A stretch of DNA of 45,265 bases from a virus. Positions 10,589 to 43,982 of the stretch are shown here, piece by piece (the first letter of the stretch is position 1; each line of letters starts with the position of its first letter). Location: IMG/VR virus record IMGVR_UViG_3300031521_000118, positions 1 through 45,265 of that record; one strand, 5' to 3'. Both the position numbers and the translations under genes were made by a program. The notes below the pieces were generated by a model, which was not told the origin of the DNA, searched no databases, and saw only the letters and a list, made by a program, of their open reading frames with translations.

Positions 10589-10918
10589 CTATATGTTGTA
10601 TTTTTTTGCAGCTAAAATAGCTTCTAAATCTTCAATATTTTTTGAATGATACACAATGTCACGCATACTCTCTCTTCTGCATTTATATTCAGTATTTTGT
10701 TCAAAGTGAAAATATGTAAGTAATGATATTGGTACATTCCGATATTCTATAATATATTTATATGGACATACTAATGTACCATCTGTTACATCACCAATAT
10801 ATTTACCAATGTTGTTCTCTAAAAAATCATCCAGATCAGGTATTGATTCAGAACATATTACATATTCACCGATTTCAATAACATCTGAATAATTAGAATA
10901 TTCTTTAATATATTTCAT
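10589..10918 (-). CDS. TAG A SH3-like protein ending in TAG codon
   Basis: 109 residues: MKYIKEYSNYSDVIEIGEYV, LDDFLENNIGKYIGDV, IPISLLTY-type segment, SKNIEDLEAILAAKKYNI. The stop is TAG (10589-10591), one of only three TAG ends seen in the window. Because KYNI is where other members stop, this TAG must act as a real stop at least part of the time. Readthrough would add only seven residues. Confidence 0.86.
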   Translation of the reverse strand: MKYIKEYSNYSDVIEIGEYVICSESIPDLDDFLENNIGKYIGDVTDGTLVCPYKYIIEYRNVPISLLTYFHFEQNTEYKCRRESMRDIVYHSKNIEDLEAILAAKKYNI

Positions 10919-12530: not shown

Positions 12531-12570
12531 TTATTTTATATTTTATTTTATTTAGTTTATGGTAATAAGT

Positions 12571-12590
12571 TTTTTATATATACTTAAAAT
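12571..12590 (+). promoter_or_regulatory. Late-type promoter for endonuclease gene
   Basis: TTTTTATATATACTTAAAAT, ten bases before the ATG at 12601. The same word occurs at 44031-44050 and, in part, at 7155-7185. Its presence argues for the 12601 start, not the in-frame ATG at 12559, which would put the promoter inside the gene. Confidence 0.6.
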
Positions 12591-12600
12591 AAAAATAAAT

Positions 12601-13500
12601 ATGAAAACAAATAATGTTTGGACAAAAGAAAAATGTATTGAAGAAGCATTAAAATATAAAACTAAAAATGAATTTAGAATAAAATGCACACAGGCATATG
12701 GTACATCAATAAGAAACGAATGGATATATGAGGTTTGTGCTCACATGAGAAGAAATAAATCATATGTTTGGTCCAAAGAATTTTGTCAAGATGAAGCATT
12801 AAAATTTAATACTAGAAATGAATTTAATAAAAAATCGCATTATATTTATAGAATGTCATTAAAAAATGAATGGATAGATGATATTTGTTCTCATATGATA
12901 TCTATTGGTGATATATATAGAAGATGTATTTATGTTTATGAGTTTTCTGATAATTCTGCTTATATAGGATTAACCAGTGATTTAGATAGAAGATTTAATG
13001 AACATTTAAGAAAAGGTACAGTTTATAAACATATACAAAAAAACAATAGTTATAACTTTAAAAGATTAACAGAATATGTTGATGTAAATTTATCAAAAAA
13101 ATTAGAAGAAGAATATGTAAATAAATATAAAAATAATGGTTGGAAAATTTTAAATAAATATAAAACAGGAAGTATAGGCGGGCAAAAGTTTTGGACAAAA
13201 AATAGATGTCAAAGTGAAGCAGATAAGTTTATAACTAGAGGGGAATTTAAGAAAAGTTTACCATCTGCATATTTAATATCATTAAAAAATAAATGGTTGG
13301 ATGAAATATGTGTTCATATGATAGAAATAAAAAAGAGAAAGAACTATTGGACAAAAAATATGTGTAAAGAAGAGGCATTAAAATATAAGACACGATCAGA
13401 ATTTTTTAAAAAATGTGTTAGCGCATATTCTAAATCACATAAAAATGGTTGGCTTAATGAAGTTTGTTCTCATATGAATAAAAACAATAATAAAAATTAA
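12601..13500 (+). CDS. GIY-YIG endonuclease flanked by four W-x-C-HM repeats
   Basis: About 299 residues. A GIY-YIG nuclease core lies in the middle (CIYVYEFSDNSAYIGLTSDL, then RRFNEHLRK; about residues 107-190). Two repeats of about 45 residues precede it and two follow. Each repeat reads W[TS]K-x-x-C/R-x-x-EA-x-KF/Y-x-T-R/K-x-EF ... AY/IY ... S-x-KN-x-W[LI]-x-[ED][IV]C-x-HM. Such repeats are likely DNA-contacting. This is a free-standing homing-type endonuclease, probably mobile. It lies on the plus strand between minus-strand genes, with its own promoter. The inferred role is to cut an allele lacking it. Confidence 0.85.
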   Translation: MKTNNVWTKEKCIEEALKYKTKNEFRIKCTQAYGTSIRNEWIYEVCAHMRRNKSYVWSKEFCQDEALKFNTRNEFNKKSHYIYRMSLKNEWIDDICSHMISIGDIYRRCIYVYEFSDNSAYIGLTSDLDRRFNEHLRKGTVYKHIQKNNSYNFKRLTEYVDVNLSKKLEEEYVNKYKNNGWKILNKYKTGSIGGQKFWTKNRCQSEADKFITRGEFKKSLPSAYLISLKNKWLDEICVHMIEIKKRKNYWTKNMCKEEALKYKTRSEFFKKCVSAYSKSHKNGWLNEVCSHMNKNNNKN

Positions 13501-27148: not shown

Positions 27149-27205
27149 ATTATAAAAATTCTTTTTTTAATATATGAAAATAAACGATATTTGTTTTATA
27201 TAAAT

Positions 27206-27239
27206 AAAAAAAGCATAGAAAATATTTTCTATGCTTTTT
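27206..27239 (-). terminator. Terminator of the tRNA unit
   Basis: Long palindrome AAAAAGCATAGAAAAT / ATTTTCTATGCTTTTT directly after the tRNA 3' end. T-rich on both sides, so it may work in both directions. Confidence 0.8.
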
Positions 27240-27240
27240 G

Positions 27241-27311
27241 TGTTCACTGTGGGGGTCGAACCCACATTAACTGTTTTAGGGACAGCTGCCCTGCCATTGA
27301 ACGAAGCGAAC
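27241..27311 (-). tRNA. Amber-suppressor-type tRNA, anticodon CUA
   Basis: A complete cloverleaf reads on the minus strand. Acceptor GTTCGCT/AGTGAAC (one G-U); D arm GTTC-AATGGCA-GGGC with A14, GG and A21 in place. Anticodon arm GCTGT-CCCTAAA-ACAGT; T arm GTGGG-TTCGACC-CCCAC; discriminator A73. No CCA is encoded. The central loop bases give anticodon CUA (27277-27279), which reads UAG. Position 33 is C where U is almost universal, which should weaken decoding. The amino acid cannot be read from identity elements. The PTH2-like gene with an in-frame TAG lies just upstream in the same unit. Confidence 0.88.
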
Positions 27312-27320
27312 GATTAACTT

Positions 27321-27428
27321 GGTAAACTCTTTCTTAGACTTGAATGTTTTATACATTTTCCACTACGGAGGTAAGGATAGTTAAAACCTTAGCATGACCG
27401 TGCGGGGTTTCACCGCTTTTAATTTACC
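27321..27428 (-). ncRNA. Candidate structured RNA between PTH2 gene and tRNA
   Basis: More GC-rich than its surroundings. Minus strand: 7-bp closing helix GGTAAAT / GTTTACC (27422-27428 with 27321-27327). Inside are three hairpins: GCGG-TGAAACC-CCGC, a two-part helix ACGG..TAAGG / CCTTA..CCGT, and AATGT-ATAAA-ACATT. It matches no RNA class I know. It may be a processing or regulatory element of the tRNA transcript. Confidence 0.4.
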
Positions 27429-27437
27429 TTTATTTTT

Positions 27438-27761
27438 TTAAAGTATTGCTACTTCAATGGGTTTTGCTTCCCATTTTTTTAAATTACGAAATAGAGAATC
27501 ATTTCCTTCTACTGCTAACGCAGTTGGTATATTTCCTAAATCTGGTTCCTAGAACACTGTAAAATTTAAACCTTTATGTTTTAATTTAAAAATCCATTTT
27601 TCAATGTCCGCAGAAAGATAAATAAGATATTGATTATTCCACGTTTGTGTATCTTTATTATCAATCAGCCATCCAGCTACTGCATGTCCACCTTGAACAC
27701 AGCCATAAACTGTTTCCAGTTTGCTATCAATCAGCACAAACAGCTTCTTCTTGTATTCCAT
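27438..27761 (-). CDS. PTH2-like peptidyl-tRNA hydrolase with in-frame amber codon
   Basis: From ATG 27759-27761 the first 70 codons read MEYKKKLFVLIDSKLETVYG, CVQGGHAVAGWLIDN (His26 in the Q-x-x-HA motif of PTH2) and KWIFKLKHKGLNFTVF. Then comes TAG at 27549-27551. The same frame continues EPDLGNIPTALAVEGNDSLF and RNLKKWEAKPIEVAIL to TAA at 27438. The (F)-x-EPDL-N-x-x-TA-x-A block is the conserved PTH2 C-terminal half, so TAG sits at a variable residue between two conserved halves. Full length is 107 residues, as in phage PTH2-like proteins. The family frees tRNA from stalled peptidyl-tRNA, although phage copies may have other roles. Readthrough needs the CUA tRNA about 240 bases downstream. 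Confidence 0.85.
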
Positions 27762-28038
27762 ATTTTTGAACTAATTTGTCAATATCAAGTTTATATATTG
27801 ATATCTGCCAAGTGTTTTCATTATTTTTGGTTTCAAAGGTACTAAGATCTCGTCCTTTTAATACATGATAAGCTGCATATAGCAGTCTTAATTTGTGTCG
27901 GTTTTCACTGTGTAAGTACGCAGCTTTCCATGGTTCCATTACTCGTTCACCTTTAATGTGAACTGTCTTTCTCTGATTTCTAAGAGATACTTGATTCTCT
28001 GCAAGTTTTTTTATTTCTTCTTTTATTGTAGTTTTCAT
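27727..28038 (-). CDS. Conserved phage hypothetical upstream of PTH2
   Basis: 103 residues: MKTTIKEEIKKLAENQVSLR, HIKGERVMEPWKAAYLHSEN, RHKLRLLYAAYHVLKGRDLS. The 'NQR-K-T-V-h...MEPW-A' form recurs in hypothetical proteins of Bacteroidetes phages. Overlaps the start of the PTH2-like gene by 35 bases, so the two are probably co-translated. Function unknown. Confidence 0.8.
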   Translation of the reverse strand: MKTTIKEEIKKLAENQVSLRNQRKTVHIKGERVMEPWKAAYLHSENRHKLRLLYAAYHVLKGRDLSTFETKNNENTWQISIYKLDIDKLVQKYGIQEEAVCAD

Positions 28039-28410: not shown

Positions 28411-29304
28411 TCAAAACACTAAACTACTTTTCGTTTCCCATCTAAAATATAACTTTGAGTTTTCACGCAAAATTAAATATTTATATGTATCATGATTTTG
28501 CTGACTCATACAGTCATCATCAATAACCATAGACATTTCTTCAACGTTATAGATTTTTGGACCAAATGGTAGATATCCTAAGAAATCACCATATTTTTTA
28601 ACCATAATTGTCAATCTGTCATAAAAATCAACGCTTGCATTTTCACCAATCCAATTATCAATATCATTGTTCAATTTAGATTTGTATAACTTTCTGAATG
28701 TCACTTGATCTGCTCCAAGTTCTTTACATCTTTCAATAACAGAAGAAACTGTCAGATTGTCATAATCGTTAACAAGATTCAAAGATAACCTCAAATTAAA
28801 ACCATATTTTTTGACAAGTTTTATAACTTCAAAAACATTAAATTTTAATTTTTCAGCACAGCCAATAAGTTCAATATTTCTTTCATTATCAAAGATGTTT
28901 GATATTGAAAAAGATATAGTTGTAACACCATTATCTCTTAAGTGTATCAAGTACTCGTCATCAAGTAGAACACCAGTTGTTTGAACTTCGATACTCTTAA
29001 ACGGTGTTTGTAATTTTGAATTAACAGAATAGAAAAAATCCAAAAAGTTTCTATTTTGAACTGGTTCTCCTGTTCCAGTTAAAACAACAACATTACATCC
29101 ATTATCACGTGCATATTGCAATCTATTGTAATAATCATTATATTCTGGTAATCCAGCAAGTGGTACACCATTATATGACATTTTAACAATTTTACTAATC
29201 TTATCTTCATATGGATTAGTATGAGTTCTGCTTACACAGAATTTGCACTTATTTACGCAACTGTTGTTTGTTGGTACTACAATACTTAAGCTTTGAATAT
29301 TCAT
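28411..29304 (-). CDS. Radical SAM enzyme
   Basis: 297 residues. CVNKCKFC at 16-23 gives the three cluster cysteines in C-x3-C-x2-C spacing. The SAM-binding GTGEP follows at 77-81 (TGTGEP), with IEVQTTGVLLDD and ISFSISNIFDN as later beta/alpha units. The 4Fe-4S cluster cleaves SAM to start radical chemistry. The substrate is unknown; the length fits a single-domain enzyme (a MoaA-like partial barrel). Phage copies may modify nucleotides or peptides. TGA stop. Confidence 0.87.
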   Translation of the reverse strand: MNIQSLSIVVPTNNSCVNKCKFCVSRTHTNPYEDKISKIVKMSYNGVPLAGLPEYNDYYNRLQYARDNGCNVVVLTGTGEPVQNRNFLDFFYSVNSKLQTPFKSIEVQTTGVLLDDEYLIHLRDNGVTTISFSISNIFDNERNIELIGCAEKLKFNVFEVIKLVKKYGFNLRLSLNLVNDYDNLTVSSVIERCKELGADQVTFRKLYKSKLNNDIDNWIGENASVDFYDRLTIMVKKYGDFLGYLPFGPKIYNVEEMSMVIDDDCMSQQNHDTYKYLILRENSKLYFRWETKSSLVF

Positions 29305-38596: not shown

Positions 38597-39376
38597 ATGG
38601 GAATAATATATTTAACAACAAATAAAATAAACAATAGAAAATATATTGGTGTTGACTCTCAAAATAATAAATCATATTTTGGCTCAGGTAAAGCTATAAG
38701 ATTGGCTATTAAAAAATATGGAACTAAAAGCTTCACAAAAGAAATATTAGAAGAAAGTGATGATAAAGAATATTTATTTGAAAGAGAAAAATATTATATT
38801 GAAATATATGATGCTATAAACTCTAATGAATATTATAATATGGCTGAAGGCGGTAAAGGCGGCGCTGGAACTTTGGCAACAGAAGAAGCTAAAGAAGCAC
38901 ATAGAATTGGCTGTAAGAAAGGATTAGAAAAAATATCTGAATTAAGACGAGGTAAAACTTACGAAGAAATATATGGTGATAGAGCAGATGAAGAAAAAGA
39001 AAAAAGAAGATTAGCTGGTTTAGGTAAAAAATATGATGAAGAAAGAACAAAGAAAAGTGGAGATGGCCATAAAGGCCAAATACCTTGGAATAAAGGCAAA
39101 AAAGGATTACAAATACCTTGGAATAAAGGACTAATAACACTACAAGAACCATGGCAAAAAGGTAAAAAATATGTAACAAAGAAATATATTTTAACTCTTT
39201 TAAATAATGAAGAAATTGAATTCTTAGGTAGAGACAGTTTAGAAAAATATATAAAAGAAACAATAAATCCTACTCTTATTCAGAGTAGGATCAATATTAT
39301 CAATTTAATAAATACTAATTTTGATAAAGGATTTTATTTAAATATTATAAAATTAGAAAAACCATTAATTCTTTAA
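38597..39376 (+). CDS. GIY-YIG homing endonuclease
   Basis: 259 residues. Core at the N-terminus: GIIYLTTNKINNRKYIGVDS (GIY...YIG), R-type catalytic region AIRLAIKKYGTKSFTKEILE, and EREKYYIEIYDAINSNEYYN with the catalytic Glu. Then GGKGGAG. The C-terminal part has two DNA-binding-like segments with 'PWNKG' (IPWNKGKKGLQIPWNKGLIT), the NUMOD-type repeat. Seg-like, free-standing. Probably mobile; its C-terminus overlaps the thioredoxin gene on the other strand by four bases. Confidence 0.88.
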   Translation: MGIIYLTTNKINNRKYIGVDSQNNKSYFGSGKAIRLAIKKYGTKSFTKEILEESDDKEYLFEREKYYIEIYDAINSNEYYNMAEGGKGGAGTLATEEAKEAHRIGCKKGLEKISELRRGKTYEEIYGDRADEEKEKRRLAGLGKKYDEERTKKSGDGHKGQIPWNKGKKGLQIPWNKGLITLQEPWQKGKKYVTKKYILTLLNNEEIEFLGRDSLEKYIKETINPTLIQSRINIINLINTNFDKGFYLNIIKLEKPLIL

Positions 39377-40924: not shown

Positions 40925-42400
40925 ATGAAGACCGTAAAAAATTATGACAAATTTTCAGAACAATATAGATTGAATGAAAATTTATTAGGTAAAGCCTGGG
41001 ATTCGATTGCAAATTTTTTCAAAAATAAATTTAAAAAAGCGTCATGGCTTTATTATATTTTATATTTAAAAAAATCTGGACAATTACCAAAAGAAAAAGT
41101 TGAAATTATCGTTCCATCAGATTATCCTATCGACGAAATTCCTACTGAAAAAGAAGTTGAAATGACAGCAGAATCATTAAACACAACAATTCGTGTTTCA
41201 AAGCTTAATGAAGACGTTATTGATTTGCAACACAGTGATCCAAACATCAGAAATGTCGATGTAGAAGAATTGATGAATGAAATTATTACTATCTACGAGA
41301 TGAATGCTGATAGAGTAGAAGAAGGTAAACCAAGAACAAAAAATGATGCACTTTTTATTTGGGGTGCTCCTGGAATTGGTAAAACTGAAATTTTAAGTCA
41401 AGCAGCAAACAAATTGGGTTGTGTTGTCATAGAATGGCACTTATCTCAAATTGAGCCTACTGACTTTAGAGGTGTTCCAAAAATTGAAAATACAGTTAAA
41501 GGTAGTGTAGATCCAAAAGATGAAAGAACAGTATCTAAATTGCCAGCTATGTTCCCAACAGATGATGGTGTTAATGGTAAAGGTGGTATTATGTTCTTTG
41601 ATGAAATCAATAGAGCACCTAAAATGGTACTTTCTGCAGCATTATCATTATGTTTGAATGGTAGAATTGGTGATTATACTTTACCAGAACATTGGATAGT
41701 TATTGCAGCAGGTAATAGACCTGAAGATTTAGGTGGTGCAGTTGCAACCACAATTGAACCAGCTTTGGCTAACCGTTTCTCGCACATTAATTATGCACCA
41801 ACATTAGAATCATGGACTAAATGGGCAACACAAAAACAAGACATTAATCCTGACCTTATTGCATTCTTACACTTTAATAAATCATATTTCCATAAATTGG
41901 ATCCTGATAAAGAAATAATGGCTTGGCCTTCACCTCGTACTTGGGAAATGGCTTCTCATAAAGATTATTTCAAAAGAGGAAAAGATTGGCACAACAAACT
42001 TCCTTATGATAGAGTTCAAGCAACATATACCGATTTAGTTGGAGCAGAAGCTGCAATTGCATTTGTATCATATTTGAAATTGAAAGAATATTATAATGAA
42101 AAAGATGTTGAAGAAGTTTACAAAAATGGTAAAAAAGCTAAAAAGGTTCCAACCAAATTAGATGAAGCCAGAGCAGCATTAGCTTCAATTGCATTCTTTA
42201 AAAAAGGTGAAGATTTGACAGTTAAAGAACTTGAAAATATCTTAGAATTTGCTTTAGATTTACCAAGTTTGGAATCTAAAACATCTTTGATAGCATTTCT
42301 TAGAATGGTTCACCCTGAAATCAAAGAAAAAGATCCTTGGAAAGCAATTTATTGGGAGTATGTTAAAAAATGGCATCTTGATGTAAAGGCTTTAGAATAA
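40925..42400 (+). CDS. MoxR-family AAA+ ATPase
   Basis: 491 residues. Walker A GAPGIGKTE at about 146-154, Walker B MFFDEINRAP at about 222-231, sensor 1 AAGNRPEDLGG near 262-272; MoxR type with arginine finger in NRF. About 90 residues precede the ATPase domain, beginning MKTVKNYDKFSEQYRLNENL, a start with L-N-E at 16-18. MoxR ATPases pair with VWA proteins to remodel or mature other proteins; the VWA partner follows at once. Late-type promoters; own terminator at 42421. Confidence 0.9.
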   Translation: MKTVKNYDKFSEQYRLNENLLGKAWDSIANFFKNKFKKASWLYYILYLKKSGQLPKEKVEIIVPSDYPIDEIPTEKEVEMTAESLNTTIRVSKLNEDVIDLQHSDPNIRNVDVEELMNEIITIYEMNADRVEEGKPRTKNDALFIWGAPGIGKTEILSQAANKLGCVVIEWHLSQIEPTDFRGVPKIENTVKGSVDPKDERTVSKLPAMFPTDDGVNGKGGIMFFDEINRAPKMVLSAALSLCLNGRIGDYTLPEHWIVIAAGNRPEDLGGAVATTIEPALANRFSHINYAPTLESWTKWATQKQDINPDLIAFLHFNKSYFHKLDPDKEIMAWPSPRTWEMASHKDYFKRGKDWHNKLPYDRVQATYTDLVGAEAAIAFVSYLKLKEYYNEKDVEEVYKNGKKAKKVPTKLDEARAALASIAFFKKGEDLTVKELENILEFALDLPSLESKTSLIAFLRMVHPEIKEKDPWKAIYWEYVKKWHLDVKALE

Positions 42401-42420
42401 GATTATTTATAAAAAATAGA

Positions 42421-42447
42421 AATCCTGATAAAAAATATCAGGATTTT
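42421..42447 (+). terminator. Terminator after MoxR gene
   Basis: AAATCCTGAT-AAAAAAT-ATCAGGATTT stem-loop followed by a T-run. Confidence 0.8.
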
Positions 42448-42461
42448 TATTTTTTGATATT

Positions 42462-42482
42462 TGATATTTTATATATAATGAA
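42462..42482 (+). promoter_or_regulatory. Late-type promoter for VWA gene
   Basis: TTGATATTTTATATATAATGA just after the terminator, about 22 bases before the ATG at 42504. Confidence 0.5.
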
Positions 42483-42503
42483 TAAAAATAAAAACAATTA
42501 ATT

Positions 42504-43982
42504 ATGTTAACAAAATTTAATAATTATGAAACACTAATAGCATTGAACGAAATGATAGAAAATGCTGTTGATAAAACCGCACTTAATAAGGTTAGAAGAT
42601 GCTTCACTCAAATTTTAACTCAGTTTGGATTCTTTGCTGATTTATTATTTCAATTGAATATTATAGAAGCTCACCCTGGTACTGGTGTTGAAACTATGGC
42701 AACTGATGGTAAATCTATAAGTTATAGTCCAGGATTTGTTAATAAATTGACAGAAGCTGAAGTTGTATTTGTTATAATACACGAAGTTATGCATAATGCA
42801 AATTTTCACTTTGTTAGACAAGGTGGTAGAGATCATGAATTATGGAATCAAGCAGCAGATTATGCTATAAATATTCAAATTGATGATATGAAAAAAGATA
42901 TGAATAGTAGTGTATTAGCTCCACCTAAAAATATTTTGTTAGATGAAAAATATCGTGGTATGAGAGCAGAACAAATCTATGATATACTTGCAAAACAATC
43001 TCCACCAAAAAAACAAGGACAGGGTCAAGGACAGGGTCAAGGACAAGGACAGGGTCAAGGACAAGGACAGGGTCAAGGACAAGGACAGGGTCAAGGACAA
43101 GGACAGGGTCAAGGACAACCAGGACAAGGACAGGGTCAAGGACAACCAGGACAAGGACAGGGTCAAGGACAACCAGGACAAGGACAAGGCGGAGGAGGTA
43201 CACCACAAGGTGACTTACGAGCACCAGGTTCATTGGATGGAACAGGTGATACTATTTATGAAGGTAACACAGAATTAAATGATGCAAAAACCGAAGCTGA
43301 ATTAGAAAAAAAATGGAGAGATATTAGAAATAATGCTGCTGCAAAAAATCAAGGTACAGGTTCAAGCTCATTAGACAGATGGTTAAGAAAGGCAAATAAA
43401 CCAAAAATTAATTGGAGAGCAGAACTTAAAAAATTTGTTGCACAAGTTTATGACGAACTTGATTATGCATATTCTAATAAAAGATATATTTGGCAAGATA
43501 TGCACTTACCTGGACCAAAAGAAGCAGACAAATCATCTTATCAAGATGTTGTAATTGCTATAGATACATCAGGATCAATTGGTGAAGAAACCTTATCAAA
43601 ATTTGCAGCAGAAATGATGAAGCTATTTAAAACATATAGTGTTGTAAAATGTCATATTGTATGGTGTGATTCAAGAATATGTTCAGTTCAAACTTTTGAT
43701 GTTGCTGATAAGAGTTTTAAAATGGATAAACTAAGACCTTGCGGTGGAGGTGGAACAAGCTTCAAACCACCATTTGAATGGGTACAGAAAAATATAATAA
43801 AAAAAGGTAAAGTACCAGCATTCTTTATATATTTTACTGATGCTTATGGTGATGCGCCATCTGTTGGAGAATATGGACTTAGATCTTACGCTAATAGAGT
43901 TTTATGGGTAATAACTGAAAATGATAATGCATCTAATATTAAATTTGGTAAGAAAATTTATATTGATAAAATGCCAGGATAA
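42504..43982 (+). CDS. VWA-like metallopeptidase (DUF2201 type)
   Basis: 492 residues. The N-terminal zinc site is IHEVMH-N at about 92-98 (HExxH). A long Gly-Gln/Pro repeat follows at about 171-228, then a VWA domain with MIDAS DTSGS at about 352-358 (VVIAIDTSGSIGEE) and a CHIVWCDS strand. The family (DUF2201, VWA-like with a metallopeptidase N-terminal domain) pairs with MoxR ATPases. It starts MLTKFNNYETLIALNEMIEN, again with L-N-E near 14-16. Predicted chaperone/protease pair for a late substrate. Confidence 0.9.
   Translation: MLTKFNNYETLIALNEMIENAVDKTALNKVRRCFTQILTQFGFFADLLFQLNIIEAHPGTGVETMATDGKSISYSPGFVNKLTEAEVVFVIIHEVMHNANFHFVRQGGRDHELWNQAADYAINIQIDDMKKDMNSSVLAPPKNILLDEKYRGMRAEQIYDILAKQSPPKKQGQGQGQGQGQGQGQGQGQGQGQGQGQGQGQGQGQPGQGQGQGQPGQGQGQGQPGQGQGGGGTPQGDLRAPGSLDGTGDTIYEGNTELNDAKTEAELEKKWRDIRNNAAAKNQGTGSSSLDRWLRKANKPKINWRAELKKFVAQVYDELDYAYSNKRYIWQDMHLPGPKEADKSSYQDVVIAIDTSGSIGEETLSKFAAEMMKLFKTYSVVKCHIVWCDSRICSVQTFDVADKSFKMDKLRPCGGGGTSFKPPFEWVQKNIIKKGKVPAFFIYFTDAYGDAPSVGEYGLRSYANRVLWVITENDNASNIKFGKKIYIDKMPG
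43017..43190 (+). repeat. GQ-rich coding repeat in VWA gene
   Basis: Tandem GGACAGGGTCAAGGACAA type units encode GQGQGQ, ending with three GQPGQGQ modules. Frames on both strands stay open here, giving false ORFs; only the Gly-Gln frame is real. Length is likely to vary between relatives. Confidence 0.85.

Follow-up and report, generated by a model that had tools for sequence, protein, structure and literature searches.

Phage-encoded stop-reading tRNAs have been described in code-15 phages, among them the Lak megaphages and crAss-like phages, where UAG is read as an amino acid (PMC6784885, PMC8346664, PMC9523058). Many genes of those phages use TAG as a sense codon, and their CUA tRNA works for the whole genome. 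Each of 51 Lak genomes also carried a TAA-reading tRNA while TAA showed no sign of being recoded, an observation that was left open (PMC8346664). Standard-code phages such as XacN1 (PMC5852040) and Atu_ph07 (PMC6102473) often carry stop-reading tRNAs that lack a visible target. Other systems tie a stop codon to a dedicated factor. The prfB gene is split by a stop whose reading is affected by its own product, RF2, and is autoregulated through a frameshift (PMC12421855), while pyrrolysine decoding pairs UAG with a dedicated tRNA-CUA. Theta ribozymes give phage suppressor tRNAs a special processing context by processing their 3' ends (PMC10879173).

We examined a window of 45,265 nt, the whole stretch of DNA analyzed here (IMG/VR virus record IMGVR_UViG_3300031521_000118, positions 1 to 45,265), in which a tRNA-CUA follows a peptidyl-tRNA hydrolase (PTH2)-like gene with an in-frame TAG. 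Lak shares the PTH2 gene and its upstream partner, orfU, with this module. However, unlike in code-15 phages, the module has essentially one client gene and UAG remains a stop. In contrast to prfB, PTH2 encodes a peptidyl-tRNA hydrolase and its stop would be read by a dedicated tRNA; an effect of the gene product on how that stop is read, like that of RF2 on prfB, is only proposed here. The window tRNA lacks the tRNA-Pyl architecture, and no match to PylS (TIGR02367) was found in the 45-kb record, which is a fragment. Whereas theta ribozymes act on tRNA 3' ends, here the tRNA is partnered by a protein gene on its 5' side. The window protein shares the fold and the conserved Q..H and T with Pth2, Bit1, and PTRHD1 (PF01981 superfamily), but the phage proteins apparently lack the catalytic lysine, carry an E-P-D-L motif, and mostly fall below Pfam detection.

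The initial annotation knew of no described system with this layout. Searches of the open literature on PTH with suppressor tRNAs, jumbo phages, and stop readthrough likewise turned up no account of the linkage. The parts are of known kinds but, as far as seen in the open literature, neither the operon nor its single client gene nor the retained-stop rule set out below has been described. A stricter judge could grade the module as a variation on phage stop-codon suppression.

The PTH2 locus in the window

The unit runs along the minus strand at window positions 27205-28038 in the order orfU, PTH2-like gene, spacer, tRNA-CUA, and terminator (Table 1). OrfU overlaps the start of PTH2 by 35 nt, which likely reflects translational coupling. 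Around the stop the translation reads TVF[TAG]EPDLGN, and the frame is broken at that codon only. Five terminators were found in the region compared to 0.4 expected in shuffles. Thus, orfU, the TAG-bearing PTH2 gene, a well-formed tRNA-CUA, and a terminator are present as the initial annotation had it, but the "structured RNA" that it placed between PTH2 and the tRNA failed its test. A radical-SAM gene lies upstream of orfU (28411-29304).

Table 1. Features of the orfU-PTH2-tRNA unit in the window
Feature	Position	Strand	Evidence
orfU, 103 aa, no assigned function, conserved partner 5' of PTH2	27727..28038	(-)	homology across loci
PTH2-like peptidyl-tRNA hydrolase gene, 107 aa if TAG is read	27438..27761	(-)	AlphaFold2 model, conserved residues
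In-frame TAG, PTH2 codon 71, immediately 5' of the conserved E-P-D motif	27549..27551	(-)	same codon in L004
Spacer, 126 nt, PTH2 to tRNA (initially called structured RNA)	27312..27437	(-)	folding, Rfam, relatives
tRNA, CUA anticodon, C for U at position 33	27240..27311	(-)	Rfam tRNA, 49 bits, E 1.4e-7
Intrinsic terminator at end of transcription unit, 14-pair stem and T run	27208..27239	(-)	terminator scan

An AlphaFold2 model built from an alignment of 44 family members (pLDDT 93.6) predicts a Pth2 fold for the window protein. The best fold matches of this model in the PDB were all Pth2 structures (TM about 0.6-0.72). By sequence, a search of the PDB with the protein returned no match, none of the Pfam or NCBIfam profiles matched it, and its match to a PHROG "hydrolase" was weak; PF01981 matched one of the 10 members of a second PTH2 alignment (A2). 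Residues Q23, H26, E72-P73-D74, and T80 are invariant in the 44 members. From an alignment by eye, the usual catalytic lysine appears to be replaced, and the activity of the protein is therefore uncertain.

Without readthrough the window protein would stop after residue 70 and lose the E-P-D...T motif, as might be expected of a decaying pseudogene. In a relative, locus L004, PTH2 has the same TAG at 74% protein identity. Before the TAG this pair is under purifying selection (dN 0.11, dS 0.79), and after it purifying selection is weaker (dN 0.17, dS 0.30, over 23 codons only). The shared TAG and this selection point to more than a chance stop. This higher ratio, from one measured pair, would fit decay. 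However, across the TAG-bearing loci the frame and the conserved motifs are intact past the TAG, which is common to diverged phages, and the predicted fold is of high confidence. We find decay scarcely credible.

The spacer folded no better than its shuffles (z = -1.6; 13 of 200 shuffles were as good) and had no match in Rfam. A theta ribozyme or other known RNA was rejected as a candidate on the same two grounds. PTH2 and the tRNA are 126 nt apart in the window but only 13 nt apart in L004, and many relatives have a gap of 27-50 nt. Given its ordinary stability, the lack of an Rfam match, and the short gap in relatives, the spacer is probably an insertion private to the window phage.

The window tRNA forms an ordinary cloverleaf in the Rfam alignment, with a 5-bp anticodon stem and two bases between the acceptor and D stems. 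ARAGORN names it "Pyl," and its scores against tRNA isotype profiles are low and scattered. Position 33, where U is near-universal, is C. Counting the window tRNA, C33 occurs in 18 of 57 stop-reading tRNAs from these loci compared to 21 of 881 other phage tRNAs, although the sequences are not independent. This suggests that these are weakened suppressors, as would be expected if a real stop should be read only partly.

Linkage of orfU, PTH2, and stop-reading tRNAs in large phages

The central claim of the initial annotation, a self-contained unit of a stop and the suppressor tRNA that reads it, is borne out and extends further than it proposed, to about 60 related phage loci. Two partly overlapping IMG/VR scans gave 38 and 65 loci, mostly on contigs of 100-412 kb, and GenBank phages contributed 15 Lak genomes and LR756500. 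The orfU-PTH2-tRNA operon was found in large gut and rumen phages. None of the GenBank phages was a direct DNA relative of the window, and IMG/VR held no exact copy of the first 30 bases of its tRNA.

For the tree and the linkage counts we used a set of 61 PTH2 members, 57 of which have a stop-reading tRNA within about 2 kb. The anticodon is CUA in about 50, UCA in 4 (L009, L023, L028, and L099), and UUA in 3 Lak loci. No stop-reading tRNA is linked to PTH2 in L005, L030, or L084, and the L020 contig ends too early to judge. The CUA tRNAs of L095, L097, L098, and L102 were missed by ARAGORN and recovered with Rfam. Usually the tRNA starts 13-50 nt 3' of PTH2 and is the nearest tRNA to it, even though the loci hold up to 32 tRNAs. 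In one clade it lies 100-1600 nt downstream, and in the clade L087-L103 it lies 0.6-2 kb upstream, perhaps on a separate transcript. The linkage was repeated in GTDB MAG contigs, with CUA in L251, L252, and L254 and a PTH2 TAG in L252 and L254.

As a control, all proteins encoded at the loci were grouped, and six families occurred in at least 12 loci. The families most often found ahead of a stop-reading tRNA were orfU (14 of 15) and PTH2 (22 of 41); the next-best reached 5 of 12, all inside one close clade. About 50 of 62 loci, including Lak, have an orfU homologue immediately 5' of PTH2; orfU has no match in PHROGs or Pfam. In the Lak genomes examined, the UUA tRNA adjoins orfU-PTH2. We rejected a phage release factor as a component of the module, as it was present in only 2 of 21 records.

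Several other features were seen at these loci. The tRNA arrays of jumbo phages include tmRNA genes (L007, L008, L010, L012-L014, L016, L018-L021, L024, L040, L097, and L102). In Lak-A2 (L042, 7920-8010) the sole upstream ATG of PTH2 is one base out of frame, ahead of a run of 10 A's; an assembly error, slippage, or a frameshift are alternative explanations. In Lak-B7 (L044) the PTH2 start is in frame.

In-frame TAG codons and retained stops

TAG occurs within or at the start of the PTH2 frame in 19 loci. It is at codon 71 in the window and L004, at about codon 36 in a clade of eight loci (L087, L088, L091, L095, L097, L102, L103, and L254), in the same column in L108, a distant phage, and at about codon 51 in L109. 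N-terminal TAGs are found in L029, L034, L104, L045, and L252. OrfU and PTH2 share one continuous frame in L036 and L038, interrupted by a single TAG. No start codon follows it, so dependence of PTH2 on UAG reading is clearest in these two. Rare start codons, such as CTG in L104 and ATT in L045, could allow translation of PTH2 that avoids an N-terminal TAG. The tree implies at least seven origins of the TAG, although it was built on a short alignment and not all of its forks are settled.

A CUA tRNA lies within about 2 kb in 19 of 19 TAG loci. The converse part of the predicted co-occurrence did not hold, as about 34 CUA-linked loci are TAG-free. In the three loci that lack a stop-reading tRNA, there is no TAG that must be read to make PTH2, and TGA is absent from PTH2 in the four UCA phages. 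Since many tRNA-linked PTH2 genes are TAG-free, the pairing of PTH2 with the tRNA is older, and the TAG was added to it repeatedly in evolution and does not define it. The TAG-free CUA loci and the UCA phages also indicate that gating of PTH2 is dispensable for the module.

We searched contig stretches for in-frame stops using gene-level frames, counting those supported by homologous proteins. Over 261,329 homology-covered codons of 20 contigs in which TAG is an ordinary or avoided stop, rather than recoded, 12 of about 15 supported in-frame TAGs fell in PTH2. With PTH2 taken as 100 codons per contig and the sites sorted by hand (4 are N-terminal or at the junction), the enrichment is about 500-fold (P = 2e-23, or P = 2e-13 counting only seven origins). 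No copy of orfU, on the same transcript, has an in-frame TAG (about 50 loci).

One account of this pattern is neutral: the tRNA always accompanies the PTH2 mRNA, little enzyme is needed, and UAG drifts in with no regulatory role. The variation of TAG position by lineage, the many TAG-free relatives, and the apparent loss of TAG in L092 and L096 within a TAG-bearing clade are in line with it. However, the TAG-free orfU, co-transcribed and of similar length, counts against mere tolerance through co-expression, without excluding tolerance. Seven origins all in PTH2 would have a chance of about 0.5^7 = 0.008, and the TAG at about codon 36 has been preserved throughout a deeply diverged clade. We consider drift unlikely.

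At about position 6108 of L094, a TAA occupies exactly the position of the conserved PTH2 TAG of its sister phages, and the remaining gene is intact; this counts against our model, as a CUA anticodon should not read TAA. In L102 (5998-6350), the PTH2 gene carries TAG inside its frame and apparently also as its terminal stop, so one mRNA would need UAG as both sense and stop.

In the window, about 104 ORF stops include 2-3 TAG, one of which is the PTH2 TAG itself, and 46-47 TGA. TAG is avoided as a stop compared to a contig of equal GC (G016; P = 3e-5). The PTH2 TAG is the only supported in-frame TAG in 1,402 homology-covered codons, a small coverage. One TAG-terminated gene (10589-10918) has a second in-frame stop seven codons on, possibly a back-up against readthrough.

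Ordinary genome-wide recoding of TAG (code 15), with PTH2 one client among others, would agree with this near-avoidance, and Lak and four relatives do recode TAG. However, most relatives with a PTH2 TAG use TAG as a stop; in eight contigs (G016-G019, G013, G026, G031, and G032) it terminates 7-35 genes and is in frame almost only in PTH2. Moreover, true TAG recoders have UCA or UUA, rather than CUA, by PTH2. We regard genome-wide recoding as a very improbable explanation, and the label "amber recoding" given initially was too strong, as most of these phages still terminate genes normally at UAG.

The anticodon of the linked tRNA follows the stops that each phage keeps. The TAG-recoding contigs G005, G021, G029, and G030 have 12, 51, 46, and 15 supported sites, respectively (Gln is the commonest partner in three of the four), and have a CUA tRNA elsewhere and UCA at PTH2. 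The TGA-recoding contigs G002 and G011, with 23 and 70 sites and Trp as the commonest or joint commonest named partner, have UCA elsewhere and CUA at PTH2. A third contig, G003, gives a weaker TGA signal (6 sites), and no UCA was seen. In standard-code contigs TAG serves as a stop and the tRNA at PTH2 is CUA. In Lak, where TAG is recoded, a UUA tRNA lies 0.6-0.7 kb upstream of PTH2. Thus, from UCA in TAG-recoding, CUA in TGA-recoding, and UUA in Lak phages, the linked tRNA reads a codon that the phage has kept as a stop. It is not the genome recoder, as the recoding tRNA sits elsewhere in the four TAG-recoding and the two clear TGA-recoding phages. At the level of sequence, these comparisons establish a conserved unit, confinement of TAG to PTH2, and this anticodon rule. 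G002 (L111-L119) and G011 (L140-L147) are jumbo phages in which many conserved genes contain in-frame TGA, mostly opposite Trp, and the closest large-contig relative of the window PTH2 is in G002.

The retained-stop rule would also suit a tRNA that acts as a weapon or anti-defense factor by forcing readthrough of host genes, with PTH2 merely protecting the phage and the TAG secondary. The stop that the linked tRNA reads is a retained one in every checked lineage, whether or not PTH2 has a TAG, and tmRNA, another ribosome-rescue RNA, was reported by ARAGORN in 17 of 80 loci, with a low-grade call in two of them. However, this leaves unexplained why TAGs accumulate only in PTH2, and C33 in about a third of these tRNAs suggests weak suppression. 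A weapon is, to us, a rather doubtful reading.

A candidate coupling of PTH2 to stop-codon suppression

Our best explanation, which we think probable but hold with some reserve, is that the orfU-PTH2-tRNA module couples PTH2 synthesis to partial suppression of a stop codon. The linked tRNA would partly read a stop that the phage otherwise keeps (UAG in the window). In no fewer than seven lineages, that of the window among them, a UAG would have come to lie within PTH2 or at its start. Full-length PTH2 would then come only from ribosomes on which the tRNA outcompetes release factor 1, and its output would track suppression activity. The likely task of PTH2 would be to clear peptidyl-tRNA left by failed termination or by ribosomes that pass a stop and then stall or drop off; were it to protect the cell from suppression, or to damp it, a feedback loop would be closed.

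Comparison of the genes gives good support for PTH2 being made by the tRNA reading UAG in the TAG-bearing lineages, while the activity and substrate of PTH2 and the sign and timing of any feedback are what we infer. Provided that UAG must be read, the proposal that full enzyme has to await accumulation of the suppressor is a consequence of the sequence; the timer or feedback switch attached to it we infer only. More broadly, orfU, PTH2, and the retained-stop tRNA may form a three-part system that would detect tRNA competing with release factors at real stops and keep this competition in check. The tRNA anticodon would shift with stop reassignment, and PTH2 would be repeatedly put behind that stop as a readout. 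We offer this wider version tentatively.

In either case, orphan stop-reading tRNAs of phages gain a conserved partner operon and often one identifiable client gene, which makes their purpose a testable question. The module would be a natural gene-specific switch of the genetic code and possibly an intermediate stage between standard and recoded genomes.

Elsewhere in the window, two genes resembling GIY-YIG homing endonucleases (12559-13500 and 38597-39376) lie on the strand opposite most genes, and a MoxR-type AAA ATPase gene adjoins a DUF2201 VWA/metallopeptidase gene (40925-43982).
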